Shown: in pieces, positions 7,856-58,619 of the stretch
Layout: each line of letters begins with the position of its first letter
Position numbering within the stretch: position 1 is the first letter of the stretch
Source: Mesostigma viride
Taxonomy: Eukaryota > Streptophyta > Mesostigmatophyceae > Mesostigmatales > Mesostigmataceae
NCBI GenBank assembly: GCA_009746045.1
Contig: RPFO01000002.1
Location: forward strand, 1,559,642 to 1,623,641
DNA length: 64,000 nt
Reading direction: 5' to 3'
Made by a program: the position numbers and the translations under genes
Notes under the pieces: model-generated
Database searches by the model: none
Told to the model about the DNA's origin: nothing
What the model saw: only the letters and a program-made list of their open reading frames with translations

Positions 7856-8298
7856 AGTTAATAAACGAATGGACCCCTCAATGCTCAATGGCCTAACGCA
7901 TGTGTTTATTACAATAAATCACAAGCCCCGCACCCAACGTGCACAAGGGCATTTAGCATTGTCGACAAGCAACGCTCTGCCTGGCTGCCACGTCTGGAGC
8001 AGCCGACAGTGGCCGTTGGGCTCTGTGGTGCAGCCTGAGTGGCGCGACGCCACTGCTAGACTCTCAGGACCTTAGTCCAACATCCGACACCTCAATGTCA
8101 GTCCCGAGTGGGTACTGGCGACGCCGTACCGCCAATCCTACTTGGGTACTGGCGTCCGTCACCAGGACTCGGCTATCGAATAGTCTAGCCTGCCGAATCA
8201 CATATAGCCGGGACTTCTGACCGAGCCTACACGTGCGAAACCCCAGATAGCACATTGCTATCTGGTACTTAGCCTATGTCCACGACTAGAGGCTAACT
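7856..8298 (-). repeat. 3' LTR of element C
   Basis: Identical in length to 14720-15162. Coding-strand ends are AGTTAGCC and TTAACT. The internal base run next to it (8299-8335) reads on the coding strand as a long A run, then GAATAAAACTGG, directly before AGTT. That is the expected position of a polypurine tract. Confidence 0.95.
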
Positions 8299-8665
8299 CC
8301 AGTTTTATTCTTTTTTTTTTTTTTTTTTTTTTTAAGGCATCAGTGCTGCACCTCCAGTTTTTATTCCTTTTTGTTTTTTTCAGGTACTTGGCAATATCAT
8401 GAATAAGACATTGGTACAGGAAAACTCATATCAGACCACAATGGACGTTGTGAATTAAAGCGCCCACAGACCCCATTGCCTTTAAATCTGACAGTGTCTT
8501 TGAGGTTTCTGAACCTAGGATCCCCTGTTTGTACAAGTCAGTGGAGTGATGAGTGGCTATGGAAAAACCAGGGGGCACATCAAGAAATTATTATGTTTGT
8601 TGCCAAGTTGCCACCAGCTGGGAAAGACCATAGTCTGCACCATTAGTCTGGAGTGCCCTATTTCA

Positions 8666-11600
8666 TCATCCATTTGTCTGACTAGACAGATAGGGATTCA
8701 TTGCATCACACAGAAGCTGGTACTGGGTTGCTGCTAATGACGGAATCTTGGTCAATGCGTCAGCCAGGTTCTCCTCGTCTGGCAGATGCTGCCAGCTGGA
8801 AAAATAGCTTGTTTCCTGTTTCAAAATCACCCAGTCCAGATCAGTATGCACAGCAGCAGTCACAGATTTCTTGTTAAGGAAACTAATGACTGACTGACTG
8901 TCAGTGTGTAAGTGAGCATGCACATCAGCCTTGCTGCCAGCCTGAGTTTGCAACCAGGTTAGTATGTGCTGAAGGGATCGAGCATGCTGCACAGCAGACA
9001 CCACAGCACGGCACTCAGCAGAGTTACTGCCAACAGCTTTTCTGCGATGCAATCTGCTGTACCACGACACCATGGACATATAGTCTCCCTTGTTGGTAAG
9101 GAAGAACACCCCAGCCTCCCTGGCATCCATTTTTGTTATTACCCTACTCTCCATGGAGCTGTCCATCAGACAGTTAATGTGAATATCTTCCATGAGGTTG
9201 AGTGGATGAATGACAAGGGAAGGTCCAGCCTTTAGTAGCTTCTGGAGATCCTTAGGTTTCATGGTTTGTAATACTGTGTCATCAATCCTGCTGACCACTG
9301 CCAGATGAGGTGCACAGATAGCACTCAGCCACCCTAATTTTCCTTTGACAGTAGCACACATGTGAGCAGGAATGCACGGAATATCAAGCAGCTCTAGGCA
9401 TTCTTCTAAGTACTGGGCAGGCGGGGATAGAGTACACACCCACTGTTCCTGTTGCTCTTCCAGTGCTAGCATTATGCCACAGAACTGTAGGGGTTCTGGC
9501 CCCAGCTCTGTCTGCTTTCCAATCTCATATGACTGCTGAACCTGCTGAATGAACTTGTCAACTTCAGCTCTTGGTCCACAAATCAGTTGGTCATCACCAT
9601 GCCACACAAACAGGAGCAAGCCAGAGGGTGTGGGCACAGCAAAGAGACAAGGGTCCAGATCATCATAAGTGGCATTAAGTTTCTTGAACACCTCTTCTGC
9701 TGATTTTCTGAAGATAGTGGGAGCACTTTGCAAACCTTCCACCCCTAGATTTAGGAGTAGATATGGCTCATCAATATCATGTGCCCATGCAGCAGGGGTG
9801 GGAACCACATAGACCTGACCCTTCCACACATCTTGCGCTTTATCAGGGTCCCCTCTAAGGAAAGCCCTTTTGATATCAGTAGCTTTGCAGGCATAATCTT
9901 GGCCAGCATTGAGATGGTGGAGGAAGACAGAGAGCAGTATCCTGAGGGATGTTTGCTGCAGCCCAGGAGTGTAGAGTTCACCCTTGGACAGTTTTGACAT
10001 GCCTTTTAATTCTGTCACACATGGCCTAGCATGATATATAGGTGAGCCTACTGGCTGTGCCTTGTGTTTTAGCACAAACTTGAGTCTCAACTTTTTGGCA
10101 CCTTCTGGAATTTCCCAGACAGGAGTGACAGGTGGCTTATAGTCAGGATGCTTAGGGTTTGGCAGCACCCACTCTTCGCGGGCTTGGTGCCTAATGGCTT
10201 GGATCCATTTTTGAAACCCTTTTTGTGTTTTGCATTGTTGGATTAGAGCATCATAGTTGTGAGGAGAGTGCATGGCTAAGTCCCACTTTCCAACCCCAAA
10301 GGACTGCGGGTGTGGCCTTTGATTGTGCACCTTTTTCTCTAGGTCAGGGATTTCACCTGGCCCATATTTGATGTTAATGGCCTTGATATAGGCATCTAAT
10401 CCATGAACCAGTTGGGACAATGGAATCTTGTAGTGATCCAAGGGAATGGCTCCTACCCCAGTCACACGCAGCTGGCTAGCAGTGATGGTGACACCTGGGT
10501 AAGAGATAAAGGGTTCTCCCAACAAAGCATTGCCCATGTACCCTTCCACTACCTGGAAAGGTGTCTGGATGCCAAGTATGGGGATCATTACTTGACCCAA
10601 CACATCTAAGGTTGTTTTGCCTGAAAAATCTTGCACCTGTGTCCATGGTGAGGGTGCAAGTTGCAGACCAGGAATGGCTTGTGCACTGATCACACTGACC
10701 TGTGCCTGAGTGTCCACAGCTAGGATGCAGGATTCCTGGCTATAATCGGAGCACACAGCAGAGACCTTGGCCAAACCTGAGGCTTGTTTAGCCTTGCTCT
10801 TGTGAGCCTTATGCAGAGCTGCCAGGGCTTTTTCTAGCTTGGATTTGAACTCAGCTGGATTGCCTTTGTTTTGCTCTGGTACCTCATGCCTGGTTGAACT
10901 CTGCCCAGAGGGACTTACACCAGGTTGTGGGGTGACACGTACCTCACTGAGGGGTGGAGGAATGACAGAGGGTGTGGTAGTGCCATCATCAGCTCCTGGT
11001 GTTGGAATGCTGGGTGGTTCTGCTTGCTCACCAGAGTTAAGGAGGGAATCCATGTTCAAGGACTCTTCCCCTGGCACGTCTGCCAAAGGAGGGAAATACT
11101 TCTTAACTCTATGACTGCTCACCCTGTGTTTTCTCCCTGTTTCCAAACTTCGAATATCCATATTTTTTCCTTTTTTGGTCATTCTTAGAACAGTGCACGG
11201 ACCATACCACATGCCTGTCTTGCCATGTTTGGTTTCTTTGAAATATAGGACTTGTTCACCCAGTTGGAATACTGTTCTGGGGTGTGTTATGTCCTTTTCA
11301 GCTAGCTTATCAGCCACTTTAGCTCTTACTGTGTTATACAGAGCTAATACCTCTGGAGGGTACACACCTGCCTGTAAGCCAATGGGAAGGATTTCCCCCC
11401 ATGGTGCATGCAACACAGGTCTAAGGTTAAGTGTAGCACAGATTTCACTGCACCACAGTGCTCTGTCAGCATAGCTTCCAGATGTGGCTTTCAGGTCAGT
11501 GGATTTCGCCACTAAAGTTTTGACTGACCTGATGGTTCTTTCAATGACACCCTGCCCTTCATGATCTTGCAATCCAGCAATCTCAATATTAGCATCCCAT

Positions 11601-12625
11601 CCTTCACACTCAGCCAGACAGCTAAACTGTTGATCAAGCAGTATAGTGTCAACTGGGTAGAATCTGGGCAATGCTATCACAAGTGCTGCACGCAGTTGCT
11701 CTTTAGCCATGCCAGGTAGGGGTTCCATGACAGTGAATCTGGACCATGTGTCTTTTAGGATCAGATATTGTTCACCATCGATATGCACGACATCACCCAC
11801 AATTATTCCCCTTTGGGTGGGTGGTGTTGCGACATGCCATTTGGGAGGTTTTGGGCCATGGAACTGACATTGCTGGCAGTGTTTTCTAGCCAACCTGACA
11901 GCATTCCTGAGTCGTGAACCTCCTGCTCTTCTGGCAATCTTTTCTGCCACCACCTCATGACCCATGGCTATGTGGAGCTGGGTTGCTAGTTCCCTTAAGT
12001 CTACTGTGTCAACAGCAGCTGGGGTAAGAGCTTTGAGGTAGGGCAGTATCACATTATACGTGGAGGAGATTTTCTGAGCTGCCTCAAAATCTAGCAGTCC
12101 CTTGTCTTTATCCCCAATGATAATGAGATCATATAAATCCACATAGGCGTGCTGTGAGGACGTACATCCTTTTGGAGCCTTGTCCTGCCGGTCGCACCAC
12201 GTGCCGGGGGGCAGATGGCGGGGGTGCTTGCAACCGAAGCAGAGGTCCACGTCGCCTACTGCGGGGTTCCACTTGCAGTCCGCCCGCTGGTGTCCCTTGG
12301 TGCCACACCGGGTGCACTTGTTCTTGGGACCTGCATGGGGGGGCTGAGCAGTGGGTGCAGGGGTGGGTGGGGCAGGTGTGGGGGGGTGGGCCGCCTCCAC
12401 TGGTTTGGCTTGAGCTGAGCAGGCTGTCCCGGCTGGCCTTGGGGCTGGTTGCCCTTGGCCTTCTTGGACTGGCCGCCCTGCTGCCCCCCTAGCTGGCGCT
12501 TTTTTCCTTGCCCCTTCCCTTGGGTCTGTTGGACCTTGGGGGTTGGGGTTGCAGACGGAGCACCTATAGCCAGGGGAGTCAGGCAGTCTTGGATATGGTT
12601 CATCCCCGCCCGGAAATCGTTCCAC
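8666..12625 (-). CDS. pol: Pol of element C: zinc knuckle, integrase, protease-like, RT, RNase H
   Basis: Open for 1319 codons; the true N-terminus is probably made by a -1 frameshift from gag rather than at the first ATG. Zinc knuckle CTRCGTKGHQRADC lies at about 104-117. Integrase follows, with an HHCC finger at about 218-253 and triad candidates D283, D331 and E362. A retropepsin-like segment starts at D638 (VDTQAQVSVI) with its LLG strand near 701. RT has ATDIKRAFLRGD near 916 and the catalytic WHGDD near 1008-1012. RNase H has MDSSMES, an AECRAV glutamate, HTDSQS and ENLADALTK. It would process and copy the element RNA inside a Gag particle and integrate the cDNA. The order integrase before protease is not the canonical Copia order. 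The ORF ends with TGA. Confidence 0.93.
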   Translation of the reverse strand: MERFPGGDEPYPRLPDSPGYRCSVCNPNPQGPTDPREGARKKAPARGAAGRPVQEGQGQPAPRPAGTACSAQAKPVEAAHPPTPAPPTPAPTAQPPHAGPKNKCTRCGTKGHQRADCKWNPAVGDVDLCFGCKHPRHLPPGTWCDRQDKAPKGCTSSQHAYVDLYDLIIIGDKDKGLLDFEAAQKISSTYNVILPYLKALTPAAVDTVDLRELATQLHIAMGHEVVAEKIARRAGGSRLRNAVRLARKHCQQCQFHGPKPPKWHVATPPTQRGIIVGDVVHIDGEQYLILKDTWSRFTVMEPLPGMAKEQLRAALVIALPRFYPVDTILLDQQFSCLAECEGWDANIEIAGLQDHEGQGVIERTIRSVKTLVAKSTDLKATSGSYADRALWCSEICATLNLRPVLHAPWGEILPIGLQAGVYPPEVLALYNTVRAKVADKLAEKDITHPRTVFQLGEQVLYFKETKHGKTGMWYGPCTVLRMTKKGKNMDIRSLETGRKHRVSSHRVKKYFPPLADVPGEESLNMDSLLNSGEQAEPPSIPTPGADDGTTTPSVIPPPLSEVRVTPQPGVSPSGQSSTRHEVPEQNKGNPAEFKSKLEKALAALHKAHKSKAKQASGLAKVSAVCSDYSQESCILAVDTQAQVSVISAQAIPGLQLAPSPWTQVQDFSGKTTLDVLGQVMIPILGIQTPFQVVEGYMGNALLGEPFISYPGVTITASQLRVTGVGAIPLDHYKIPLSQLVHGLDAYIKAINIKYGPGEIPDLEKKVHNQRPHPQSFGVGKWDLAMHSPHNYDALIQQCKTQKGFQKWIQAIRHQAREEWVLPNPKHPDYKPPVTPVWEIPEGAKKLRLKFVLKHKAQPVGSPIYHARPCVTELKGMSKLSKGELYTPGLQQTSLRILLSVFLHHLNAGQDYACKATDIKRAFLRGDPDKAQDVWKGQVYVVPTPAAWAHDIDEPYLLLNLGVEGLQSAPTIFRKSAEEVFKKLNATYDDLDPCLFAVPTPSGLLLFVWHGDDQLICGPRAEVDKFIQQVQQSYEIGKQTELGPEPLQFCGIMLALEEQQEQWVCTLSPPAQYLEECLELLDIPCIPAHMCATVKGKLGWLSAICAPHLAVVSRIDDTVLQTMKPKDLQKLLKAGPSLVIHPLNLMEDIHINCLMDSSMESRVITKMDAREAGVFFLTNKGDYMSMVSWYSRLHRRKAVGSNSAECRAVVSAVQHARSLQHILTWLQTQAGSKADVHAHLHTDSQSVISFLNKKSVTAAVHTDLDWVILKQETSYFSSWQHLPDEENLADALTKIPSLAATQYQLLCDAMNPYLSSQTNG

Positions 12626-14688
12626 AGAGGTTTGAGACCTGCAACCACAGTGGCGTACACAGCTTTGTCCAGGTTAGCATTTGACAACCATGAATACAGC
12701 AGGTAGCTAGCAGGCAGACCCCTGAGATCAGGGTCCTTTTCTACAGCCAACCTATAATTCTTGCAATCAGTGGCATAGTCTTGCTTGTTGACCTGGTAAG
12801 CATTAAGCCAGTTGAAACCACGGATGGATTCAAACTGTGTCCTATCCACCAGCAAGTGCTTAAGCTCATCCATGAAGGCTGGCCACAATGCAATTGCTAG
12901 GTTAGGTGTCCCAGCCTTTTCTTGGTAAATCTGGACCAAGGTTTTAATGGCTGGGGCTGACCTATGGATGGTGGTGGATGCACGCAAGGCACTGAACCAG
13001 TTCTGGACATTCAGAGACTCAAAACAGTAGTTCAGGCTAAACAAAAATTCCTTGGCCTGTTCCTGGGTGTAACCCTCAGGTAAGCCAGGGATTTCTATTT
13101 TAGATTCTTTTTGTTTTGGGTTAAACGTACCTTTGACCGGGTCCTTCTTTTCAGCCAAGAAAGTCTTGACTGCTTGTTGAAGATCAGCCTCCTCCATGTT
13201 CGCCCTGCCCCTTTCCAGCTGGGAGATACTGGCCAGGAGGCCATCCAGCTGGGTGCGCGACAGGTCGTCCATGGGGTTGGTGGCCATGGTCTTGAGCTGT
13301 GCCGTGAGTATGGCAAGCAGCTCTTGGACGTCCCCCTTAAGGGTGGGTGGGGTTGGGTCCACTGGGGTCCCTTTTGCCACCGCCTTGCTCTTATCTGACT
13401 GCCCTGGTGTGGGTGCAGTCTGCTGGGCCTCCGCAGAAGGTGGTTGTGTTCCAGCTTGCTGTGCTAGTGCAGTGGCTGGTGGTGTTCCAGCTGCAGGCGC
13501 AGGGTCTTGTTCCCCTTGCCTTACTCCACTGCTGGTAGGAAAACCCTTGGCCTGGCCAAGCTGCTGCAGCGCTGCTGCTTGGGCTGCCAGGCCGCCCTCA
13601 CGGGCTATCATGGCCTCTAGGAGTTTATTCTCCACCACCTTGCGGCGGTGGAGCTCCTGGGCATCCGGGTCACTTGGGGGTTTGCTGGGGGAGCTGGGGA
13701 CAGTGCCCTGGCTCTTGCCCTGCAGCACCCTTGGTGACACGGCCCCTCCAACCACCCTTTGGCTCAAATCAGTGCCAGGGGTGGGGAGGGTATGTGCAGG
13801 GAGTGCAGGCGTTTCTGTTGCCTGCATCTTCTCCTGCAGCTTGGTCAGCTGCAACAGGAGGGAATTGAGTTGGTCCGCTGTTAGCGTGACCCCCTCGTCC
13901 CCCTGTGCAACAACCAGCTCATTGAAGAGGCGCTCATGGAGCACCTCTCCAGCTTGCATGGCAGCCAGCTGCTTTTCAGCAGTCATGTTGCGGGCCGCTG
14001 TCTTTTTGCGGTCCCGCTCTTGCTGTGCAAGACGGCGTGCCTCTACAAACTGGGCGGCGGCCTGTTCGACCGCCTGATTGAGTGGATTCATCTCAATCTC
14101 CCCATCAGAAACCCCTGGGGAGAGGGTGACCTCGTCATCAGACAGCTGAATGCTGCCGATGACGGGTCCTGGGACCTTCTTGGTCCGCATTTTGAACATG
14201 TATGCGTCCCTCTTCAGCTTCCTCTCGTACCCCCCCGCTTTCTGAGCGGATGAGGGGACGATCGGCACCCCCGCTTGTTCTCCACCGCTTTTGGCTATTC
14301 CGCCCTCCTCCTGAGGAGGTTGGGACGGTGCCTTAGCGGGGAGGTCAGCGGGGCTTGCCTGAGGGCTGGGGGACCGCATACTGCTTACGGATTTTTGCGA
14401 GCTAGCTGGGCTAGAAAAAACAGATTTTTCGGCCTGTTCGGCCAAGGAGGTTACCTGTTTTTGCAGGGCTGCCAGCTGCCGCTCTTGGGCGGCTGCCTTG
14501 ACGCTTTGCTGAGCCATTGCTGTCGCTAGCTGCCTAGCCACTAGCTGTTCCTGCTCCGCCTGCGCCCTTCTTGCTTTTTTAATTTTCTTGGCCGCAGCCT
14601 TCTCCTCTACTGTTGGCACCGTCTGCCAGCCAGCATCATCTATCCGCTTCTTTTTGAATTTCAGGCCTGGCATAATAGGATCTCCCAT
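12256..14688 (-). CDS. gag: Gag of element C
   Basis: 810 codons, starting with ATG 32 nt inside the 5' LTR. The N-terminal part is rich in Lys, Gln and Ala and likely coiled coil (AQEQQLAALQKQV-type heptads). The middle is low-complexity. The segment around residues 525-720 (SLNYCFESLNVQNWFSALRA ... FNWLNAYQVNKQDY) looks like a retrotransposon capsid fold. It would form the particle that packages the element RNA. The last 80 residues are Pro/Gln-rich and overlap pol. No zinc knuckle is in this frame; the knuckle lies in the pol frame, so either only Gag-Pol carries it or an indel separates it from gag. Confidence 0.85.
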   Translation of the reverse strand: MGDPIMPGLKFKKKRIDDAGWQTVPTVEEKAAAKKIKKARRAQAEQEQLVARQLATAMAQQSVKAAAQERQLAALQKQVTSLAEQAEKSVFSSPASSQKSVSSMRSPSPQASPADLPAKAPSQPPQEEGGIAKSGGEQAGVPIVPSSAQKAGGYERKLKRDAYMFKMRTKKVPGPVIGSIQLSDDEVTLSPGVSDGEIEMNPLNQAVEQAAAQFVEARRLAQQERDRKKTAARNMTAEKQLAAMQAGEVLHERLFNELVVAQGDEGVTLTADQLNSLLLQLTKLQEKMQATETPALPAHTLPTPGTDLSQRVVGGAVSPRVLQGKSQGTVPSSPSKPPSDPDAQELHRRKVVENKLLEAMIAREGGLAAQAAALQQLGQAKGFPTSSGVRQGEQDPAPAAGTPPATALAQQAGTQPPSAEAQQTAPTPGQSDKSKAVAKGTPVDPTPPTLKGDVQELLAILTAQLKTMATNPMDDLSRTQLDGLLASISQLERGRANMEEADLQQAVKTFLAEKKDPVKGTFNPKQKESKIEIPGLPEGYTQEQAKEFLFSLNYCFESLNVQNWFSALRASTTIHRSAPAIKTLVQIYQEKAGTPNLAIALWPAFMDELKHLLVDRTQFESIRGFNWLNAYQVNKQDYATDCKNYRLAVEKDPDLRGLPASYLLYSWLSNANLDKAVYATVVAGLKPLWNDFRAGMNHIQDCLTPLAIGAPSATPTPKVQQTQGKGQGKKRQLGGQQGGQSKKAKGNQPQGQPGQPAQLKPNQWRRPTPPHLPHPPLHPLLSPPMQVPRTSAPGVAPRDTSGRTASGTPQ
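12499..12505 (-). promoter_or_regulatory. Candidate -1 ribosomal frameshift site A AAA AAG
   Basis: On the coding strand gag reads GGA AAA AAG CGC here, giving the heptamer A-AAA-AAG in the zero frame. Pol is in the -1 frame relative to gag and is open across the whole overlap (12256-12625), so a slip here fuses Gag to Pol. The pattern fits the X XXY YYZ rule. A competing explanation is a one-base indel at the G run near 12378-12384. Confidence 0.6.
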
Positions 14689-14719
14689 GATTTTGTCTAT
14701 GGTAAACGACTTTAATTCA

Positions 14720-15162
14720 AGTTAATAAACGAGTGGACCTCTCAATGCTCAATGGCCTAACGCATGTGTTTATTACAATAAATCACAAGCCCCGCACCCA
14801 ACGTGCACAAGGGCATTTAGCATTGTCGACAAGCAACGCTCTGCCTGGCTGCCACGTCTGGAGCAGCCGACAGTGGCCGTTGGGCTCTGTGGTGCAGCCT
14901 GAGTGGCGCGACGCCACTGCTAGACTCTCAGGACCTTAGTCCAACATCCGACACCTCAATGTCAGTCCCGAGTGGGTACTGGCGACGCCGTACCGCCAAT
15001 CCTACTTGGGTACTGGCGTCCGTCACCAGGACTCGGCTATCGAATAGTCTAGCCTGCCGAATCACATATAGCCGGGACTTCTGACCGAGCCTACACGTGC
15101 GAAACCCCAGATAGCACATTGCTATCTGGTACTTAGCCTATGTCCACGACTAGAGGCTAACT
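14720..15162 (-). repeat. 5' LTR of element C
   Basis: 443 bp, matching 7856-8298. It is followed inside the element by TGAATTAAAGTCG, not a TGG-type primer-binding site; gag starts 32 nt later. Confidence 0.95.
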
Positions 15163-16238: not shown

Positions 16239-16855
16239 AGTTGTGAGGGTAAGAATGCCACGAATTCCGCCATGGTTCTTGCAGGAAGTTGCCTTTATTA
16301 ACAATCAGGAAACACAGACGTAAGTCACGTCACTTCCAAGACTGCACGCAGCACAGACGACAGGGTCGCAGTGCCAAGAGAACGTGCACGCAAGAACTAG
16401 CGTCCCGGTGTGACCAAGTCACTCATATAGCTTACTAGGGACGCGTCCAAGTATTCAGCTGCACTGTCACAGCTGAACTGTCAATCAATTGATTACACAG
16501 ACTCTGGCACGCCTTTGGCGCGCAGATCTATCAATTGTCCATACGGCTAGTCCTGTGGTCCTATCCGTACACTACTCAGCATCAATTGTCTCATAGGTCC
16601 TGGCGCGCTACAGTGCGCCTACCTATCAATTGACCATCAAGTCCTGTACAAGTCCTGTCAACGTCCTGCGGACTATCAAAGTGACACTTGTACATCCTGT
16701 GTCCGTACGCGCCCACAGTGGCGCGCCGGGTACTGTCGGCACAGCCTAGGAAACGTCATAACTTTTACGTTCCTTAACCAAATGAGGCGTTCAAGGTGCC
16801 GTTGGAAAGAGCGTAACAATCTCTATCCATCTAACGTAAATCCTTTACGTTAACT
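16239..16855 (-). repeat. 3' LTR of element A
   Basis: 617 bp, AGTT...AACT. On the coding strand it is preceded by AAAGAAAAGAAGGGATTGG, a clear polypurine tract ending TTGG just before AGTT. Confidence 0.95.
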
Positions 16856-17804
16856 CCAATCCCTTCTTTTCTTTAGGGATCACATCCCCTGCCAGGGACC
16901 CTTGAAGTAGCTTGAAATGTCCTTCACTCCAGCTTGAAGCTTGAACAGATGTCTTTAATGGCCATTGCCATTCCCCCAGCCCTTTCTTTTAAGGAACTGG
17001 AAAAGAAACAGATCTGCCACAGGGAAAACCATTCATGAGAAATGGATAAAAACCTATGGAAGTGGCATTACAGAGTACCACCAGATATTAGAAGCACACA
17101 AAATTAAATACATACAGGTTAATTCTATGAGGTCTTCTCCAGGAATTAATCCCATCACCTCGGTAGAGCCTCCAGTACAATGACCTTCTGGCGGTGAGTT
17201 ACATTAATCCCAGATACTAATCCCATAAAACCCAGTACATATTCAATATAAGTACAATAAATCCATGACAATTAAAATACCACTTGACAAAGTAAGGCGT
17301 ATTACAATAGTTTGCCTGTCATTCTCTCAACAGGGGTCTATTGGCGCCCGTCTTACGGCGCCCGTCTACTTGCCAGATGGTAAACTGCCACAGCAAACAA
17401 ATGACAAAATGAAACACATAGGCAACAATTAAATCCTGCCCTGGGGAACTAGGGAAGTCTGAACAGGCAAACACCTGAACAGGCCAGCTTGTAGAAACAT
17501 AATACCAGGGAATCGAACCCCGCCCTATAAACCCCAGAATAAAGGTTCCCAGACCATTGTGAGAAGTATGTACAAATATACATTTCTTTTAAAATAGAAT
17601 ACATGGTCTGTAATGGACCTGTCAACCTTGTGTAGTCAACAGCATGAACCCCAGCCAAAACCTGGCTGTATCCTGATTAAAATCAGAGTGAGTGTACCAT
17701 GGTCCATGAGCCTTAGTACAGACTAAAATACAGGTATTATGCCAGTCACAATGCTGACACTACCACACAATCTGCTCTCCAATGCCCTATAACCATGCAC
17801 CAGC
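16856..17804 (-). other. 3' untranslated region of element A with tRNA T-arm mimic
   Basis: Non-coding. At 17506-17522 the coding strand reads CGGGG TTCGATT CCCTG, a 5-bp stem with a 7-nt TTCGATT loop, as in a tRNA T arm. About 140 nt further on, GACGGGCGCC occurs twice (complement at 17343-17352 and 17357-17366). Elements D and E2 have the T-arm motif in the same region. Function unknown. Confidence 0.7.
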
Positions 17805-20800
17805 TTAGACAGCTTGCTGAGATGGGTCCATCAGAGACTGAAGAACCTTGTATTGCACTGCTGCCTTCTGCACTAGCTTGGTCAAAGCATCAGCAGGATT
17901 GTCAACCCCAGGGATATGCTCAATATTGGCCAAGGAGGACAACTCCTTAAGAAGGAGATAATCCAAGTCCCTACTTCTGGCCATCTGCCTGTGCACAAAC
18001 TGCACCATCCCCATGGAGTCTGTTTTTAGAAGAGTGGTAACCTGAAGTGGCCAAGGAGTGTTAGAAGTCATCTGATGAAGCAACTCCTTCAGATAAAGGC
18101 TTGTGTGAATGCCTTCACAAATAGCCCTGCATTCTGCCACATCACTGCTGACAGCCACCCGTTTGTGCAGGCGACTAAACCAGCTCACCAAACTCCCCAG
18201 GCCTTCCTGTCTGAGCACAAAGAGCCCTGCAGCCCTGCCCCTGACCTTGGAGACCTGCCTGCTGTCCATTGAGCTATCCACATACAGCTCCATGCAAATG
18301 GGTTGTGATAAATCCACTGCAGACAACAGAATGCCAGATGAAGCCCTGACCTGATCAGCCACCTTGGCAGACCCTAGCTCCACCAGCATGTCATCAGGCA
18401 ACCTGGCTATGACCATAAGGTCTGGCCTGGAAATGCCTGCCACCCAAGCAACCATGCCCCTCACCATGGGACACAGTGCCTGTGTGATGGTTGGAGGAAG
18501 CTTGCTAATGAGGGTCTCTTGATAGTCATTGCCCCCCACCAGCAGCATACGCCACTCCCCTCCCTTCTTCACCAGTGTGGCCTCCATGCCCACAAACAGC
18601 AGAGGCTCATTCTCCACCTGCCATTGCTCCCTACCCAGAGGAAACTTGGACTTAATGATGGAGATCAGCTCCTTAAGCCACGACGTGGGAGCTATCAGAT
18701 GTAGGTCATCCCCGTGCAGCGAAGCATACACTGGCAGGCCTTCCCATTGCCCCAGAAACAGACAGGGGTCTACAGGAGAGACCTTCAAGTTGCAATGCTC
18801 CTTCAGGAAACGGTTGAGAGTCTCCCTCCAGATTATTGGACTTGACCTCAGGCCCTCCAGGCCCTTGAGGATTTTAAGGAACTCCGTGTGGATGTCCCTT
18901 TTCCATACAGCAGGCACCCTAACATAGAAAGGCGTCTTGCCCTCCCACTTTTCCTGTGCCACATCTGCATCACCCTCCAGAAATGCCCTCTTGAAGTCTA
19001 TCACCACTGAGCCATAGTCCAAGCCCTTGTTGAGAAGGCCTAGAAAGACACACAGCAGCAGCCTCCAAGTATCATGCAGCATGCCAGGGGTATACAACTC
19101 CTCAGCAGTGCACTCACCAGTACCCTTGAACTCATTCAGCACTGGCCTGACATGTGGTACCTTGACCCCGTCCACCTCCTTCATCTTGATGACAAACTTG
19201 AGCTTGAGTAGACGTCGTGCAGGAGGCAGGTCATTGACAGGTTCCACGCATTTCTTGGAGATCCAGTCCTCCCCAGATTTAATCAGACCCAGTGTGACCT
19301 GGGGACACATAATGGGAGAGGACATGAGCTTCACCAGGCCTTGGTAGTTGATAGGGCTGTGTCCAGCAAGTGAGTGAGGACCAATGCCCAAACTGCTTGG
19401 ATGACTAGCAGCTGGCAGTATGAGGTCATCAACCAAGGGCTCCTGCCCCTGGCACACTTGCACACGCTTAACCGTCCTGGTTACTGCACGTGATAGGTGA
19501 GTGGTCCTGAAATTAATCAGTGGGACCTGACCAGCCCCTTCCTTAGTCAGGAGAGAGGACGTGATCACTACCCCATCCTGGCATAGGAAATTCTGCCCCA
19601 GAAGAGCAGGTCCTTGATAGCCCTCCAAGACACAAAAAGCAGTGTCCTGTCCAAGGATAGGAATGAATACCTCACCCAGTACCTTCACGTGTACCCCGCC
19701 ACTGAAGTCAGACACAAACTGATAGCTGGGTTCAGACATGCTGTACCCTGCTGCAGCCCTGGTCCCAATAATGGAGACCTGAGAATTAGTGTCTACCTCT
19801 AAGGCAGTGTCCAGCCCCAGATTGCCATGCCACCTGAGCTTGGCTACCTTGGGCTGCTTCTTGGCCCTTTGTAGAGCCCCAATCAATCCAGCCAAACTTG
19901 TCCCCCTGGGCTTGGTTAGTGCCTTGGGCTTGACAGTTGACTCCCCAGCTGTTGACCTTGCAGCCTGTTCAACAAGTACCTCTGCAACCTGGCCAGGGCT
20001 GACAGATTCCCCTGCAACAGATGTGGTCGTTGCGTCAGTGATGTCACCTGGGACCTGAAAATCCTGCAGATCCTGTGAGCCTTGTGCCTGACTGCCCTCA
20101 TTCATCAGGTTAGGCTTGACATATGACCAACTCAGCCGGTGTACATGCTTTGGTTCGTCCTCCATGCTGACCAAGCATGCGTGGCTAGCTTCATCAACCT
20201 GGGTAACCACCCCAGGACTCCAGCTACCACGTTTGCCATAAAGGCTAGGTTCCTTCCAAGCTAGGACCTTCTGACCCACTTGTGGCTCCAGCATCTTCCA
20301 ACCCCGGTCCTTCTCCCTCAGCTTGGCAAAGGTGACATGTGCAGCATGTTTCCAGCCCTCCAGCACATGTGGTGGGCACAGGCCATGATATAGACCCATT
20401 GGGCTGACAGCAACTCCATCATAGTAGAAGTTAACCCTGCTGTTCAGCTGCTGCTCCACGTTCCTCAGCCATGCACTCCTGACAAGTGCAGGTGCAGACA
20501 AGGGTACCCAGTCTTCAGAGATGATCAATTTCTTGACCTCCTGGATTGCCCTCTCGATAGCACCCTGCTGCCCATGAGCCTCCCTAGGTGTAACCAGCAA
20601 CTCAGGAAGGGTAGGATCACCCTTGAGATGCTGAAACTGCATGTCCACCTGGATCCTTGTGGTAGGAAACTTGGCTCTTACATTCTGCAGGGCAGCCAGC
20701 AAGTACCTGTTCTTCATAGAAGGTAAATGCTCCAGCACCTTGTATTTCGTGTACCTGTCCACGCACACCAACAGTTGCATGCCCCTGATGTGTTGGATAT

Positions 20801-21290
20801 CACACTGCAGATCACCAATGCTCTGAGGTAGAGCTTTGGCATGTGATTTCCTGGGCTTGTTGGAGGACAACTGGCACTTACACCGTGAGGCAGCTTGCTG
20901 ACACGCCTTAAGAAGGGGTGCCCTGCCCATACGGAAGGCAAAGTTGTTTGACAGAGAAGTGGCATGCCCAAACATGTTGTGGATTCGGGCACCCAACTCC
21001 TGGTACACAGAGGAAGCAGTCCCTGGCACAGTCAGGACTGTGCTGTCAGGTTGTCCAGCATCACCATGCTGACTTCCATCCTGTTCTGACTCAGAGCCTG
21101 AGTCACCCTGCTCATGCCCAACACCTGGACCGCCAGCAGGGACCACATGCATACCACCAGAGGCCTTCACACCCCTCTGTGGTTGTACATTGGTTTCTCT
21201 CAAAATGAGAGGTCCACCCTCGTGCCCAGCACGAGGATGCATAGGGTCAGACATACTTACAGCTGCATCAGCTGTCAAGGACGTCTTCAT
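17805..21290 (-). CDS. pol: Pol of element A: integrase, protease-like, RT, RNase H
   Basis: 1161 codons from the first ATG, ending in TAA. The frame is open a further 47 codons upstream to the UGA that ends gag. Integrase: IHNMFGH finger near 103-139 (the final Cys of the usual C-x2-C is Ser here) and triad candidates D164, D216, E246 (GQQGAIER). Protease-like domain: LEVDTNSQVSI at about 497-507 with PALLGQNFL further on; the usual Gly of DTG is Asn. RT: VIDFKRAFLEGD and SLHGDD. RNase H: YVDSSMDSRQ, AECRAI, KTDSMG and NPADALTK. Closest in this window to D and E2. Confidence 0.93.
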   Translation of the reverse strand: MKTSLTADAAVSMSDPMHPRAGHEGGPLILRETNVQPQRGVKASGGMHVVPAGGPGVGHEQGDSGSESEQDGSQHGDAGQPDSTVLTVPGTASSVYQELGARIHNMFGHATSLSNNFAFRMGRAPLLKACQQAASRCKCQLSSNKPRKSHAKALPQSIGDLQCDIQHIRGMQLLVCVDRYTKYKVLEHLPSMKNRYLLAALQNVRAKFPTTRIQVDMQFQHLKGDPTLPELLVTPREAHGQQGAIERAIQEVKKLIISEDWVPLSAPALVRSAWLRNVEQQLNSRVNFYYDGVAVSPMGLYHGLCPPHVLEGWKHAAHVTFAKLREKDRGWKMLEPQVGQKVLAWKEPSLYGKRGSWSPGVVTQVDEASHACLVSMEDEPKHVHRLSWSYVKPNLMNEGSQAQGSQDLQDFQVPGDITDATTTSVAGESVSPGQVAEVLVEQAARSTAGESTVKPKALTKPRGTSLAGLIGALQRAKKQPKVAKLRWHGNLGLDTALEVDTNSQVSIIGTRAAAGYSMSEPSYQFVSDFSGGVHVKVLGEVFIPILGQDTAFCVLEGYQGPALLGQNFLCQDGVVITSSLLTKEGAGQVPLINFRTTHLSRAVTRTVKRVQVCQGQEPLVDDLILPAASHPSSLGIGPHSLAGHSPINYQGLVKLMSSPIMCPQVTLGLIKSGEDWISKKCVEPVNDLPPARRLLKLKFVIKMKEVDGVKVPHVRPVLNEFKGTGECTAEELYTPGMLHDTWRLLLCVFLGLLNKGLDYGSVVIDFKRAFLEGDADVAQEKWEGKTPFYVRVPAVWKRDIHTEFLKILKGLEGLRSSPIIWRETLNRFLKEHCNLKVSPVDPCLFLGQWEGLPVYASLHGDDLHLIAPTSWLKELISIIKSKFPLGREQWQVENEPLLFVGMEATLVKKGGEWRMLLVGGNDYQETLISKLPPTITQALCPMVRGMVAWVAGISRPDLMVIARLPDDMLVELGSAKVADQVRASSGILLSAVDLSQPICMELYVDSSMDSRQVSKVRGRAAGLFVLRQEGLGSLVSWFSRLHKRVAVSSDVAECRAICEGIHTSLYLKELLHQMTSNTPWPLQVTTLLKTDSMGMVQFVHRQMARSRDLDYLLLKELSSLANIEHIPGVDNPADALTKLVQKAAVQYKVLQSLMDPSQQAV

Positions 21291-21431
21291 AGGAACCTGT
21301 ACCTCTCCAGGTGACCTGGGGCCACACTGAACCTGGAGATCACCCTCTTGTTGCCCAGATATAAAATCTGCATTGGAGCACCTGGCCTCCCCCTTGGGTG
21401 AATTAAGGTGTGTAGGGGTTGCCTCAGACAG

Positions 21432-21434
21432 TCA
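21432..21434 (-). promoter_or_regulatory. In-frame UGA between gag and pol (candidate readthrough stop)
   Basis: Gag ends CAG TGA CTG. The 47 codons after the TGA contain no stop and run straight into pol in the same frame, and none is ATG until 21290. Element D has the same layout with TGA CTT (58620-58622). Elements B and C end pol with TGA, so UGA is an ordinary stop here. In-frame stop readthrough is the known strategy of gammaretroviruses; its use here is an inference. Confidence 0.65.
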
Positions 21435-22545
21435 CTGCTCCTTGTTGTCTTCTTGCTGACTGCCCTTTGAAGGCTGGCCTGCCTGGGACTTGTTGTTGTT
21501 CTTCTTGTTGTTGTTGTTATTCTTGTTGCTGCCCTGGCCCTGGGACTTCTTGAAGCTGGGACACTCCTTCTTGATGTGCCCCCACCCCTTGCACAGGTAG
21601 CATTGTATCTTGGACTTGCCCTGGCCACTGCCCCCATTGTCAGACGCGTTGCCCTGCTTGGGCTGACCACCCACCCGCCTGAACACCGACTTGGAGTGTG
21701 ACCTCCTGTCAGAATCAGGTGAATGATCTCCCTTGCGCTTGTGATGGTTGCCCCTACGCCCTCCTTGGCTTCGGTCAGCCTCAGACGTCTTGGAGCCACC
21801 CTGGGTACGCCCGCCTGCCTGGGTAGCCTTCACTGCTGGCACTCCACCCTCAAACAGCTCCTCTGCCTCGAGAGCTTGTTTAATGATGACCTTGTAGGCC
21901 TTCAGGGTAGAGTGTGGGGCACACATGACTTTTAAGGAGCCACGTGTCGCCTTATCCAGCCCAGAAACCTTGAGCCAGTTGGTTAGGGCTATGTTATCAG
22001 CGACATTAAAGCCGTGAGCCCTGCCCTCCTCAACCATCTTACAATAGTTGAGAAAGTTCTGGATCAGGTCCCCCTTGACCTCCCACCCTTGGTACTTGTC
22101 CTGCCAATGGATGCCCACTTTCTTTCTGATCCTCCAGCAGCTCCTTCAGCTCAGCCACGTACAGTGCCCAGGCCTTATTGGCCTTTTTGCACTCCCTGGT
22201 TAGGTCCTTAATCTGGTCAGTACACTTGCCAAAAGTGCTACTGCCTATCCAGATTTGATAGTAATTTGTACCACCGTACAAGCTAGGGAACCCTTCCAAT
22301 CCCTCCACAAACTCTTCAGCCTGCTTAGGCTTGGAGTCTGAGGTTACAGGCTGCAACTGATTGACAATTAAAAGACCCTGTGTGGTAAGATCAAAGCCAT
22401 GAATAGCTTGTGCATTATTATTATTGTGAGGAAGGTTGGTAATCTCTCCGGTAAGCCCCACGTCATCTACGTGAGCGGTTCCACTACCAGCACCCCCATT
22501 ATTATTCCCACTGGCTGGACCCTTGCTACGGCGTCCCTCAGCCAT
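21432..22545 (-). pseudogene. gag: Gag of element A, one frameshift
   Basis: Two overlapping frames: 22545-22039 begins MAEGRRSKGPASG, and 22118-21432 carries the C-terminal half with zinc knuckle CYLCKGWGHIKKEC and an Asn/Lys-rich tail. They must join near 22125-22150, in a purine stretch reading AGAAAGAAAG on the coding strand, by a one-base shift; the second frame has a TGA just upstream, which bounds the join. The C-terminal half matches D Gag (HGFNVADNIALTNWL versus HGFNLTDRAVADYFL). Either a recent indel or a sequencing error; a programmed shift this early in gag would be unusual. Confidence 0.75.
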
Positions 22546-22714
22546 CCTGCACTACCAGCTATTCAAAGAACACCTTAACAAAGCAGCAGAAAATATGTAC
22601 AAAATTTTTGTGTCGCCACTGCCGCCTGCGCCGGTGTCGCTGCCGCCCCGCGAATTGCCGCTGAAAATTCGACAAAAAAATGTCGACGAGTACTGCAGAA
22701 GAAAATTAGGCCGA

Positions 22715-23425
22715 CTAGTAGTCAAGGCCCCTGAAGTCGCAGTACGTGTATACGAACTCACGATCCTCCATATCCAGCTCCGGACCTGCACCGGTATGAA
22801 TTAAAACCGGCGTGCTCCCCGCCGCGTAAGTTGCGACGCGCCGACGCGCGACGAGGCGCAGAGGATGTGTAAAGATCGTCAATAATTCCCACCCCGCGGG
22901 AATCCACTCTCGCACAGAGGCGAGAAATGCCACCAGGTTAATTAAAACCTGGCGCTCGCGACTGCGTACGCCGCGAGTGAGCAGCGATAACAGCGCGAGA
23001 TCCTGAAACAAATTTGTCGACACCGCCGGCGCGCCCCCCGTGCGTAGCGATGCCCAGTTTTGCAGGTTTCTCTGGTAACCGGTGAGTGAAGAGAGGACGT
23101 TGTCCAACTCCTCAATGGCAGTCGTGACTTCGGTCACCGACCGCAAACCTCCCCGCACCTGGACCGTAAATGTCGATAAAATGTTTCGAATCTGGTCCAA
23201 CAGGTTGCGGATTGCCGGCACCAGTGCTGGCAAATCGGGGTCCTCGGGGTTATCCCCGAGCAATGCGTGAGCTGCACGCTGCTGACGATGAAGCTCGTCG
23301 AGCGAGACCGTTACTTCGTCGAGCAATTGCTGCCACGACGGCACCGTCGGTCTTGACGAAGAACCAGCCGGCGGAGCGGCTATTTCCTCATCGTCCGGAA
23401 TCCGAAATTCTTCCGAATTTGGCAT
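22715..23425 (-). CDS. ORF0 of element A, unknown protein upstream of gag
   Basis: 236 codons, beginning MPNSEEFRIPDDEE only 25 nt inside the 5' LTR and ending 170 nt before gag. The first 40 residues are acidic and Ser/Pro-rich; residues about 40-130 look helical (LLDEVTVSLDELHRQQ, AIRNLLDQIRNILSTF), followed by a hydrophobic helical stretch (VLINLVAFLASVREWIPAGW) and an Arg-rich segment. No zinc finger, protease, RT or nuclease motif is visible. D has an ORF at the same place and distance from the LTR. Canonical Copia elements have no such gene. It could be a second structural or nucleic-acid-binding protein; that is a guess. Confidence 0.75.
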   Translation of the reverse strand: MPNSEEFRIPDDEEIAAPPAGSSSRPTVPSWQQLLDEVTVSLDELHRQQRAAHALLGDNPEDPDLPALVPAIRNLLDQIRNILSTFTVQVRGGLRSVTEVTTAIEELDNVLSSLTGYQRNLQNWASLRTGGAPAVSTNLFQDLALLSLLTRGVRSRERQVLINLVAFLASVREWIPAGWELLTIFTHPLRLVARRRVATYAAGSTPVLIHTGAGPELDMEDREFVYTYCDFRGLDY

Positions 23426-23449
23426 CTTTTTGACAGAGCGTGTAATACG

Positions 23450-24066
23450 AGTTGTGAGGGTAAGAATGCCACGAATTCCGCCATGGTTCTTGCAGGAAGT
23501 TGCCTTTATTAACAATCAGGAAACACAGACGTAAGTCACGTCACTTCCAAGACTGCACGCAGCACAGACGACAGGGTCGCAGTGCCAAGAGAACGTGCAC
23601 GCAAGAACTAGCGTCCCGGTGTGACCAAGTCACTCATATAGCTTACTAGGGACGCGTCCAAGTATTCAGCTGCACTGTCACAGCTGAACTGTCAATCAAT
23701 TGATTACACAGACTCTGGCACGCCTTTGGCGCGCAGATCTATCAATTGTCCATACGGCTAGTCCTGTGGTCCTATCCGTACACTACTCAGCATCAATTGT
23801 CTCATAGGTCCTGGCGCGCTACAGTGCGCCTACCTATCAATTGACCATCAAGTCCTGTACAAGTCCTGTCAACGTCCTGCGGACTATCAAAGTGACACTT
23901 GTACATCCTGTGTCCGTACGCGCCCACAGTGGCGCGCCGGGTACTGTCGGCACAGCCTAGGAAACGTCATAACTTTTACGTTCCTTAACCAAATGAGGCG
24001 TTCAAGGTGCCGTTGGAAAGAGCGTAACAATCTCTATCCATCTAACGTAAATCCTTTACGTTAACT
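23450..24066 (-). repeat. 5' LTR of element A
   Basis: 617 bp, same as 16239-16855. It is followed inside the element by CGTATTACACGCTCTG; D has CGTACTATTGC at the same spot. Neither is a standard TGG-type primer-binding site. Confidence 0.95.
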
Positions 24067-24071
24067 CATTC

Positions 24072-30621: not shown

Positions 30622-31103
30622 AGTTGGTTGGAGACCCATCTAGGGTCCACATGGGTCCTCAGAGATAGAGGATCTTGTACAGATTACTACAATATACTTT
30701 ATTGTAATATTGGGCCAATGGCTGTACTTCACTAGTACTCGCCAATGGGATAACGCCACGTAGAATATGTGGGCGTCTCCCAGGCCTCCACGTCACCGGC
30801 TGGTCAAGGGCCGGTGTAGTACTGTCAATAGGACTGAGCCGACTATCGGCCTATTATGTATGCGCATCTGCCTTGGTACCTCCTAGAGGATTCTAGAAGT
30901 ATCTAACACGCGGCATGCACTGAACTACACGGAATGCATGTCCACGTAGGATATTCAGCAAGACTGATGAAGGTGCCAAGCGCAATAGAATATATGCGCA
31001 ACGAAGACGAATTATGCAGCAACGACAATAACGTATGAGAACAATAAACACAACGTTCATTTCATGCTTTCTGATTTACATCGCATTCCATTTATTTGCA
31101 ACT
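30622..31103 (+). repeat. 5' LTR of element B
   Basis: AGTTGG...GCAACT. Contains AATAAA at 31043-31048. Gag starts only 13 nt after its end, so the primer-binding site must be in or next to the start of gag; the bases there (TGTATTCATTGC) match no standard tRNA-primer site. Confidence 0.95.
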
Positions 31104-31116
31104 TGTATTCATTGCA

Positions 31117-32358
31117 ATGTCTTCGGACGACAATCTTTCAGAGCAGAGGTCTGGCCCTGGTGAGCACGGACCGGCTCAATTTTCTGTCGACCCTGGCCCA
31201 GGCGAGCACAGGGATGACAATAAGAATATGTCCGACCAGCCCCGGGAGGAGGGCTGCGGGCAGGGAAGTACTAGTAGTGACAACCAGCGTGCGCGTGATA
31301 AAGTGCTTCGGCGGGAGACCTTGCTTCAAGAGGCGAAGCTGCTGTCGGCAATCAAGAAATGGGTTCCAGCCCCGCTGGTGCCTGGTGCTATTCAAGCAGA
31401 CCGGGATCGCTTTGTAAGCTCTCTTGGGCCGTTTTTCCGCAGGCTCGCGGGCAACCGAGACATCATTCCGGACTGGCTGGAGTTTCTTCGTGGAACCCCG
31501 CTGGGAGACCGCGAGAAAAACCACCCAGAGTGGATTTCGCTGCTGGATAGAGCACAGCGTCTGCGGTGGTCGCCGTTCGAGTTTCTGCGCCGAGCGAGGG
31601 AGACTTTTCTTCGTTCTATCACTGCCAAAACCTGCGACGAGATCGAGGAATTTGTAGATGCAAAGCCGAAGCCCGGGCAGACCATCATCGAGCACCTCAA
31701 CTCTTACTACGACATGCTGGAGAAGCAGGGGCTCCGGTGGCCTGACGAGGCGGTGAATCTCCGATGGATCCAAAACTGTGCTCTGTCCGAATCCGAGAAG
31801 CGGAATTTGGTCGCCAACTGCCGCGGTTACCTGTGCGACACTCACCGATGCAGAGCTCACCTCAAGGAGCTCCTGACGAATCAAACCCGTGTTTCCAGAG
31901 AAGGAGGTGCCGCGGAGGTGCCTCGTGTCGCCATGGTGATGGAGCAGCAACGGGAAATCTTCTGCTACAACTGCGGGCAGCCCGGGCACACACGCCGCGC
32001 ATGTAAGGGTAAGGTTGTCGCTAATTCTGAGTCCTTCCCTCCCTGCACTTTCTGTAATAGGACTAACCATCTGGCTAAGGATTGCTACTTTCGCAAGTGC
32101 AAGTCTTGTGGCAATTCTGGACATGATGCGTCTGCCTGCAGGAGCAAGGCGGGCGCTGGACCCAAGGATACCCAGATGGAGGTCCTCAAGCTGCTGCAGC
32201 AGATCTCCCAAGCCGTCAAGAGCGGTGCCCTTCGTGGTGGCGACGCTTCTCAGCCGCGTGGTGGTGACGCTTCCCAGCCGCGTGGTGGTGATGCTTCTCA
32301 GCCGCGGGGTGGCAATACCTCTCGTGGCCGCAAGAGGAAGCAGCAGCAGAAAAACTAG
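31117..32358 (+). CDS. gag: Gag of element B
   Basis: 413 codons from ATG (MSSDDNLSEQRSG); the frame also reads through the LTR end, but that lacks an ATG. Residues about 85-260 hold the capsid-like region (FEFLRRARETFLRSI, IIEHLNSYYDML). Three CCHC knuckles follow: CYNCGQPGHTRRAC, CTFCNRTNHLAKDC and CKSCGNSGHDASAC. The tail has four RGGDASQP-like repeats and a basic end (RGRKRKQQQK), suggesting RNA binding. It ends TAG at 32356-32358. Confidence 0.92.
   Translation: MSSDDNLSEQRSGPGEHGPAQFSVDPGPGEHRDDNKNMSDQPREEGCGQGSTSSDNQRARDKVLRRETLLQEAKLLSAIKKWVPAPLVPGAIQADRDRFVSSLGPFFRRLAGNRDIIPDWLEFLRGTPLGDREKNHPEWISLLDRAQRLRWSPFEFLRRARETFLRSITAKTCDEIEEFVDAKPKPGQTIIEHLNSYYDMLEKQGLRWPDEAVNLRWIQNCALSESEKRNLVANCRGYLCDTHRCRAHLKELLTNQTRVSREGGAAEVPRVAMVMEQQREIFCYNCGQPGHTRRACKGKVVANSESFPPCTFCNRTNHLAKDCYFRKCKSCGNSGHDASACRSKAGAGPKDTQMEVLKLLQQISQAVKSGALRGGDASQPRGGDASQPRGGDASQPRGGNTSRGRKRKQQQKN
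32350..32355 (+). promoter_or_regulatory. Candidate -1 frameshift site before gag stop in B
   Basis: The last gag codons are CAG AAA AAC TAG. The -1 frame is open from 32292 through this point into pol, whose first ATG is at 32397. G-AAA-AAC is one base short of the classic A-AAA-AAC heptamer, so slippage is plausible but not certain; initiation at 32397 is the alternative. Confidence 0.45.
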
Positions 32359-32396
32359 ATGATCCTCTCTGTTTATATAACCCCTACAGCGTCCTT

Positions 32397-35300
32397 ATGG
32401 ATGCTGATGAGAGTGGACTCATGGCAGATGAGGCCTGCCAGGTGGTAGGGGCTCCAGCAGTAACCCCTACTGACCGTAAAGCTGCCCCAGTGAGCAGCAG
32501 TAAAAGTGCCCCTGTTTGTGGCATTCCTATCCATGCCTGGAATAAAAAGAGTACCCCAGAGGGAACTCTTCCTGTAAATAATACATGTGGATCTGCTCCT
32601 GGTTGTAGACAGATGCCACATGGTGTTGCCCAGGTGAGCAACGTATCTGTGAACAATACATGTGGTGCAGCTCCTGTTTGTAGCCAAGCACCCATTGATA
32701 TTGTTAACAGTCAAGCTCCTCAGAGCAATAATCCTTGTTATATTGATAATAAAAACTTGGACTCTTGCTCTGCCAGGAACGTGGATGCCCGTCCATGTCC
32801 TGAAGAGCCTGAGCCTAATGATTGTATTAATCTTAGGACTCTGGCTAAGAGTTTGCATGATGCCTGTGGCCATGGAAACAATGCCATTAGGCTTGTTCAA
32901 GCCATTAATAACAAGGCTCTCTGGCAGGCTTATCAAGATGTCAGAGAACATTGTGTGTGCCAATTGTGTGCTAACAAGCCTTCCAAACGTCATGCAAAGC
33001 ATCCTGCAGATGGTAGGGGTAATCTACAAGCTGATATCCTCTACTTCACCAATTACAGGCAATTGCCTTACTTGGTGGCTGTGGATGAATGGTCAGGCTA
33101 CATTGGAATTGAACCTATGGCAGCAGGGGATGAGAATACTCTCCATGCCGCAGTTCTTGTTATTCTGCAGAAGTTTGCAGTTATTCATAAGCTGCAGATG
33201 GACTTGCAGTTTAACTGCCTGACCAAATACTCTGATCTGCCTTTCCTAAGGATTGTGGGTCGTGAAGATCACCAAGCCCAAGGCAAGGTTGACAGATATA
33301 TACAGGAGCTTAAGAAGTTGGTAATATCCGGGGACTATCCTGAGATGTTTAAACCAACTTTTGCTGTCAGGTGTTTGGGTGCTGCAAAAGTGGAAAACAC
33401 CATGAACAACCGTTTTCATACTATCAAGGTGCGTGGTGTTCCACGGCTGGTCTCACCTCGTGGACTAGCAGGTGGCCTCTACCCTGATGACATCATGCAG
33501 GCATGGAGTAAGCAGAGGTGGGCACAGTATGCTCATCTCTGTGAAAAGGATAAACAGAGAGGAGAATCATTAAAATTTGAGGTGGGAGACCAGGTGATCT
33601 TCCACAAAGAAAATGCTCCTGGTAAACGTGGTTATTGGCAGGGTCCAGGGACCATAACCTCAGTTGACCTGGAGATGAAAACTGCTGATGTGGTCTGGAA
33701 TGGGACCACTTATCATCTGGCTTGGAATAGATTGAAGAGAGATCCAATGAACGTTCAAGAAAATCCCCTGGAAATTATGGCCCCTGAAGAGGCACTTGGA
33801 TCTCCCAATCTTTCCTGTCCACCTTTGGCCAGTGAACAGGCTGGACTCCAACTACCAGAAAGGGCGGCCTCCCATCAACTGGAGCCTACTACTCAGCAAG
33901 CTCAGCCTAAGACATTGACTGGGATATCACAGGATGATATGGATGAAGCTGACTTGTTGGATAATAGGGTGTCTGATCAGCACCGGAAGCTCCGGCCGTT
34001 GGAACATGGGCTTGAGACCCCTGGGCAGGTGGATAACATATTTCAGTCTGAACAGCCAAAGCTTGGATCCAATTACCCTGGTAATAAGCCATTGCCCTTG
34101 GAGACTGATGGGATTCCAGCCCAAGGAAGACAAGCTGAGGAGGGGTTGTCCAGGTTGAACACTCAGCTCGGCAAGAGAGGCAATCCTCAAGAGCTTCGGG
34201 ATATTGTAAAGAAGCTCAAGCCCTCACTAAAGATTGCCAAAATAACTTCTCTTCTAGAGAAGGGCATGGACCTTGATGGCTTTGATGTGGATACCAAAGC
34301 AGAGGTCTCTGTCACCTCGCCCTTTAATGCTTTGCTGGATAAGTATTCCCTTGAACCCAGTCCATGGACTATTGTCCAAGACTTTGCGGGTAACACTGAT
34401 CATCAAGTTCTTGGGAATATCACTATCCCATTCTTGGGTGAGTCTTTGACACTTTGTGTTGTTGATGGCTATAAGGGACCCACTCTCATTGGCCAGCCAT
34501 TCTTGGTGACTCCCGGTGTTACCATTGTTGATGGCCCCAATAACACAAAGAGTCTCCTAAAAACCCATTGTGACCCAATTCCTCTGGAATCATTCAGATG
34601 TCTCTTGCCTCTTGAAATGTTCCAGAAGGCAAATTGGAAGACCGCCTGTGTCGGTTCAATAAAAGGAGCAGAATGGGGAAGGGATATACCCCCAGCTTCT
34701 GAGCTGGTAGAACCCGCCCAGCTCAGTGTGACTTCTCTTGGTCTCACAAAAAGGTCATTTGCTGCTCATAGCCCCATGTCCTTTGATGATGTAGACCTGG
34801 ATTGTCACACTTTCGCTGGCCTTGAGGCCTGGCGAGTAGCATTGGCGCGTGCGCTCCAGGAGTGGCAAACGCTGGATGTTTTTGAAGGCATTTCAGAACC
34901 TCCACCCAATGCTCAAATGCTTCAGTTGCGTTTTGTATGCAAGATGAAGAGCAAGCTTGGTGAGCCTCCCATACCAAACGCACGTCCAGTCGTGACCCAG
35001 TTCCATGGTACTACAGACTTTGATAAGGAGGAGCTGTACACTCCTGGCCTGTCACATCCTGTTCTCAGGCTTATTCTTAGTCTGTACCTTGGTGCTTTGG
35101 ACTATGGCTTGGATTATGGAGCAGAAATTGATGACTTCACCAGGGCCTTTTTGCATGGTGATCCTCAGGTGGCCAGAGCCACTTGGCAAGCTCAAAGACC
35201 CTGTTGTGTTAAGACCCCAGCATGCTGGATAGCTGAAGTAGGTCATCCCTACATGCAGCCTAAAGTGGGCTGGGAAGGACTGGTCAGCAGTCCAGTCATC

Positions 35301-58613: not shown

Positions 58614-58619
58614 CTCAAG

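Follow-up and report, generated by a model that had tools for sequence, protein, structure and literature searches.

Pol domain order in Copia, Gypsy, and the window elements

The order of domains within Pol is a criterion that separates superfamilies of long terminal repeat (LTR) retrotransposons. In Copia/Ty1 elements (Pseudoviridae), the protease precedes the integrase and the integrase precedes the reverse transcriptase (RT), whereas in Gypsy/Ty3 elements (Metaviridae), the protease lies directly ahead of RT and the integrase lies downstream of RNase H. The Gmr1 clade of Gypsy elements still has its protease before the integrase. This clade is described as carrying integrase upstream of RT, which is a precedent for altered order (PMC6238403); its RT is of the Gypsy type, whereas the elements reported here have a Copia-type RT. 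These elements, labeled A, B, C, and D, are four coding LTR retrotransposons in a 64,000-nt stretch of the Mesostigma viride genome (GenBank assembly GCA_009746045.1, contig RPFO01000002.1, positions 1,559,642 to 1,623,641; hereafter, the window). The window is rich in LTR retrotransposons, and self-comparison identified the LTR pairs of all four elements.

Our preferred reading, to which we assign a probability of roughly 0.7, is that the four elements are LTR retrotransposons of recent insertion, have an RT of the Copia type, and encode, in order, Gag with its nucleocapsid, integrase, a retropepsin-like domain, RT, and RNase H; the usual upstream protease is missing, and a Gypsy-like domain of clan AA likely cuts Gag-Pol. 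In the pol frame of element C, the HHCC zinc finger of the integrase spans residues 234-269 and is followed by D294, D347, and E378 and by a GK[RT]GxW module at residue 484. Motifs of the retropepsin-like domain come next (VDTQ at 653, DFSG at 682, and LLGEPF at 717), ahead of RT motif A (933), the HGDD box (1025), and RNase H (ADALTK at 1304). This series recurs in A, B, and a database protein, P0001, and by pieces, across frame breaks, in D, which bears out the order given in an earlier note on this DNA made from the letters alone. A protease N-terminal to the integrase, as in Copia, was not found in these elements, and the integrase of A, B, C, and P0001 lies ahead of RT rather than downstream of RNase H, as in Gypsy.

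The RT of C matched the Pfam family RVT_2 at 35.9 bits (cut-off, 31.6; E 7.7e-9). The RT of B matched it at 27.1 bits, under the cut-off, and the RT of A did not match; both are linked to C as Copia-type RTs through alignment and the tree described below. At E values up to 5, none of these three pol frames matched RVT_1, the Pfam family of Gypsy-type RTs. The elements also resemble Copia/Ty1 in having integrase ahead of RT and target-site duplications (TSDs) of 5 bp, the usual length for Copia, and they resemble Gypsy/Ty3 in having a protease-like domain directly ahead of RT.

Two protein searches, which scored only the ~8,000 candidates with the most shared words, returned 10 distinct proteins, including two outside Copia proteins (P0009 and P0010). 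In a 10-row tree of RT and RNase H, the eight rows of this group split from the two outside proteins with support of 100/99. Because these two are the only outgroup, the tree places the group in a separate clade but not next to a particular sister lineage within Copia. Within the group there are four deep branches: C; A; P0002; and a cluster of B, D, P0001, P0003, and P0004. In three of the four, the integrase precedes the protease-like domain. The 816-aa gene model P0002, from Mesostigma viride, begins ahead of that domain and contains it with RT and RNase H and no integrase.

A, B, and C each encode Pol in a single open frame; in D, pol is split over several. The split in D could point to an assembly error or to one rearranged copy; however, the same order recurs in three intact frames that have diverged from one another and, independently, in the database protein P0001, and we regard this explanation as refuted. 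The pol sequences of the other copies share 31-32% identity with that of C, and B and D share 51% over the piece from the protease-like domain to RT. The tree divides the four copies into three lineages (C; A; B with D), as the earlier note had stated. Exact 5-bp TSDs flank all four elements, whose LTR identity is 99.5-100%, and these duplications indicate recent insertions made by integrase.

Two further features concern the catalytic motifs. The RT box that reads YVDD in Copia is HGDD in all four window copies (in C, window 9590-9601), in P0001, and in P0003-P0006; it reads HVDD in P0002 and P0010. In the integrase of A, the third catalytic Glu is replaced by Asp (window 33279-33296; QGKVDR vs. 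QG.[IV]ER in C, B, and P0001) despite LTRs that are 99.8% identical.

The retropepsin-like domain and the search for another protease

The retropepsin-like domain is ~115 residues long, with pairwise identity of 36-45% among C, B, A, and P0001. Across the same six pairs, the linker before the domain is 17-31% identical and the linker after it is 20-40% identical; in one pair (A-P0001), the linker after the domain is no less conserved than the domain itself (40% vs. 36%). In four of the five between-lineage pairs, identity in the domain equals or exceeds that in RT (C-B, 42% vs. 35%; C-A, 41% vs. 33%; C-P0001, 37% vs. 34%; B-A, 38% vs. 38%), the exception being A-P0001 (36% vs. 38%). An hhG motif, [LI][LI]G[QE][NP]F, is present near the C-terminal end in all seven copies.

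In a scan of 24,736 Pfam families, PF13975 (gag-asp_proteas) matched three of seven segments (P0001, E 0.0036; C, E 0.0052; P0002, E 0.093). The matches shared one register and covered almost the whole profile, from position 8-14 to position 90-91 of 92; the P0001 segment also matched PF13650 (Asp_protease_2; E 0.19), and none of six reversed control segments matched any family. Homology of the segment to retropepsins, as the earlier note had proposed, thus appears fairly well supported. A retropepsin fold is putative, with fair support from sequence; both AlphaFold models are of low confidence.

Several results weigh against a protease. All Pfam protease matches fell under the gathering score (best PF13975 match, 18.3 bits vs. 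28.2). Four of the seven segments (A, B, D, and the half-domain P0007) matched no Pfam protease family, and NCBIfam and PHROGs scans of the seven members gave no protease match. In profile searches of PDB sequences, retroviral protease chains were one of two matches in one search and three of four in another, all within the second half of the domain and none significant (E 1.1-2.4); one is named HIV-1 protease, and the tethered-dimer matches we take from their letters to be HIV proteases. An unrelated aminotransferase outscored the proteases in one of these searches and was the sole match of the single C segment. The two AlphaFold models, built from seven-sequence alignments, had predicted confidence (pLDDT) of 42 and 45 and gave no usable support for the fold. 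Using the low-confidence C model, Foldseek found retroviral proteases in 48 of the best 50 of 238 matches (best E 0.53), although such chains are very common in the PDB; using the low-confidence B model, retroviral proteases were 19 of 50 among the matches listed, and the best row was an unrelated protein. Finally, B and P0001, a close pair, are 45% identical in the domain but 62% identical in RT.

The absence of a significant database match, the low-confidence models, and the aminotransferase, with its better PDB score and a weak NCBIfam match in one of seven members, would also fit a lineage-specific linker or RT-associated domain that resembles retropepsins by chance. We consider this improbable, given that one and the same Pfam family, of all those scanned, is matched by three divergent members nearly end to end and in one register, whereas the reversed controls match nothing. 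The aminotransferase (acetylornithine aminotransferase) was itself set aside as a chance match, as it covers 39 profile positions in a single PDB profile search and ~70 residues of C in the single-segment search.

A, B, C, and D were searched in all six reading frames for D[ST]G[ASTV] preceded by three residues that are mostly hydrophobic. The single match lies within the stretch of C that codes for its own protease-like domain, in a sense-strand frame other than pol, and no gag or pol frame of A, B, C, or D contains a canonical D[ST]G site. Pfam identified no protease upstream of the integrase in the gag frame of C or the pol frames of A, B, and C, and none in the gag and pre-integrase open frames of the four elements, each of which has zinc knuckles. 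The earlier note's finding of no other protease candidate in gag or upstream was thereby supported, and a protease hidden in gag was rejected. A true protease N-terminal to the integrase or in gag, too diverged to be recognized, could be accommodated by the long gag regions with few Pfam matches and by the stretches between gag and pre-integrase open frames, which were covered by the motif scan only. However, the lack of any D[ST]G motif in those frames, the ~75-100 residues that separate the zinc knuckle of C from its integrase zinc finger, and the poor conservation ahead of the integrase (10-26% identity) make such a protease highly unlikely.

The active site and possible origin of the domain

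The putative active site reads D-T-[N/Q/K]-[A/S] in all six copies that cover it, with Q in C and P0002, N in B, D, and P0001, and K in A. The Asp and Thr are invariant. In place of the canonical hydrophobic-D-[ST]-G-[AS] site, D-T and [AS] are present and the glycine is replaced in every copy, which counts against a working protease. The earlier note had not remarked on this replacement. Glycine is near-universal at this position of retropepsins. Because it is replaced, activity cannot be assumed, and catalysis by the D-T-[N/Q/K] site is uncertain and would be the weakest step of our preferred reading.

The site may function without glycine, or else the domain is a pseudoprotease. In the latter case, a retropepsin-derived domain would keep its fold and dimerize Pol or hold RT without cutting, and a host protease would process the polyprotein or processing would be unneeded. 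The replaced glycine and the position directly ahead of RT are compatible with such a role, whereas Asp and Thr, both kept in six of six copies, would be needless in a dead enzyme, and no other protease candidate was found. We view a pseudoprotease as a serious but unlikely alternative. We favor an active enzyme because Asp and Thr are retained, constraint on the domain is about equal to that on RT, and another protease candidate is lacking.

If the domain is an active protease, it most likely dimerizes within Gag-Pol during particle assembly and would then cleave Gag-Pol in the manner of retropepsins, doing so from a new location immediately before RT. The DT.AQVS and ILGxxF motifs resemble those of Gypsy retropepsins. 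In a simple history, the Copia protease would have been lost and a Gypsy-like or cellular protease gained between integrase and RT; alternatively, the original protease may have moved and then diverged strongly. Gain is suggested by the Gypsy-like motifs, by the Pfam matches to gag-asp_proteas and Asp_protease_2, and by hhalign, which aligned nothing in the profile of the protease-like domain to the protease of the Copia protein P0009. The fuller proposal, that a deep Copia-RT branch swapped its protease for a Gypsy-like or cellular retropepsin working with a D-T-[N/Q/K] site without glycine, is tentative, and we would put it at somewhat less than even.

The unusual branch of LTR retrotransposons claimed in the earlier note has in its favor an order common to three window lineages and an outside relative; the fold of its protease-like domain is putative, however, and the active site is altered. 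Among the papers listed by literature searches, no title or abstract opening describes the order integrase, protease, RT, and RNase H, and we do not claim the order as unpublished. A third order, common to several lineages that have diverged and inserted recently, would show that the protease can move within Pol independently of RT and integrase, and a replaced active-site glycine offers a direct test of how far a retropepsin active site can change. Software that relies on a DTG/DSG motif, or on protease, integrase, and RT in that order, may misclassify or overlook such elements.

Relatives, element boundaries, and Gag-Pol linkage

P0010, a Copia-like pol protein, is a weak relative by profile (E 2.1e-6) and has IHVDD at the RT active site and a similar integrase box, HFQQGAVER; it differs in that Pfam finds no protease-like domain in it. 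A protein search with C residues 560-900 found no relatives, and searches of viral contigs (including P0010 and P0009 as Copia reference queries), genome contigs, and plasmids found no further relatives. The named relatives are Mesostigma viride gene models (P0002 and P0004) and proteins with the labels Prorocentrum lima (P0005 and P0007) and Alexandrium andersonii (P0008). P0005 and D are 100% identical over 225 residues, as are P0008 and B over 219; the occurrence of such copies under the names of two dinoflagellates suggests a contaminant common to both or a transfer.

Table 1. Positions in the window of elements A-D and of their coding and domain features
Feature	Positions	Strand	Basis or remarks
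Element C, LTR retrotransposon	7856..15162	-	LTRs 7856-8298 and 14720-15162, 99.5% identical; TSD ATGGC at 7851-7855 and 15163-15167
C gag open frame, 821 aa stop to stop, no protease match	12259..14721	-	Open frame, Pfam scan
C pol open frame	8666..12673 stop to stop; 8666-12625 from first start codon	-	
C integrase (HHCC zinc finger, DDE core, C-terminal module)	11084..11998, approximate	-	Motifs, alignment
C retropepsin-like domain	10427..10777	-	PF13975, conservation; VDTQ from 10717, LLGEPF from 10525
C Copia-type RT	9314..10123	-	RVT_2, motifs; HGDD from 9601
C RNase H	8699..9196, approximate	-	Motifs, alignment
Element B	16239..24066	-	LTRs 16239-16856 and 23450-24067 (BLAST-aligned), 100% identical, final base common to LTR and TSD; TSD CATTC
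B pol open frame	17808..21431	-	
B gag frame	21435-22145	-	Upstream of B pol, same frame, one TGA between
B retropepsin-like domain	19506..19856	-	VDTN from 19796
Element A, inside larger element E	30622..37076	+	LTRs 99.8% identical; TSD TATTA
A pol open frame	32292..36323	+	
A gag with zinc knuckles	31075-32355	+	
A retropepsin-like domain	34227..34598	+	VDTK from 34287
Element D, pol in several frames	53441..61829	-	LTRs 99.8% identical; TSD TAAAT
D integrase, split over two open frames	57335..58212	-	
D retropepsin-like domain	56738..57088	-	VDTN from 57028
D RT from about motif A onward, with start of RNase H	55392..56267	-	

With the 5-bp TSDs flush, the element ends on the plus strand read AGTT..AACT in A, B, and C and ATTT..AACT in D, in contrast to TG..CA in Copia. 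A purine-rich tract seems to sit ahead of the 3' LTR in all four elements. The larger element E that encloses A occupies window 24066-40993 (LTR pair 24066-24692 and 40366-40993, 99% identical), and B seems to be inserted in its left LTR. Within E, the remains of an RNase H lie at ~38758-39532, and an isolated VDTNAQVS occurs at 29106.

The elements appear to differ in how Pol is joined to Gag. In A and C, the coordinates place pol in frame -1 with respect to gag. A GAAAAAC run touches the gag stop in A, whereas in C a run of seven C's lies within a 415-base gag-pol overlap; in B, gag and pol are separated by the single in-frame TGA. The zinc knuckle of C is in the pol frame, inside the gag-pol overlap (window 12256-12673), and the Gag of C alone may thus be without a zinc knuckle. 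The alignment of P0008 to B jumps from 17811 to 17384 (window 17385-17810), and GT..AG borders the gap, suggesting that an RNA is spliced immediately downstream of B pol.

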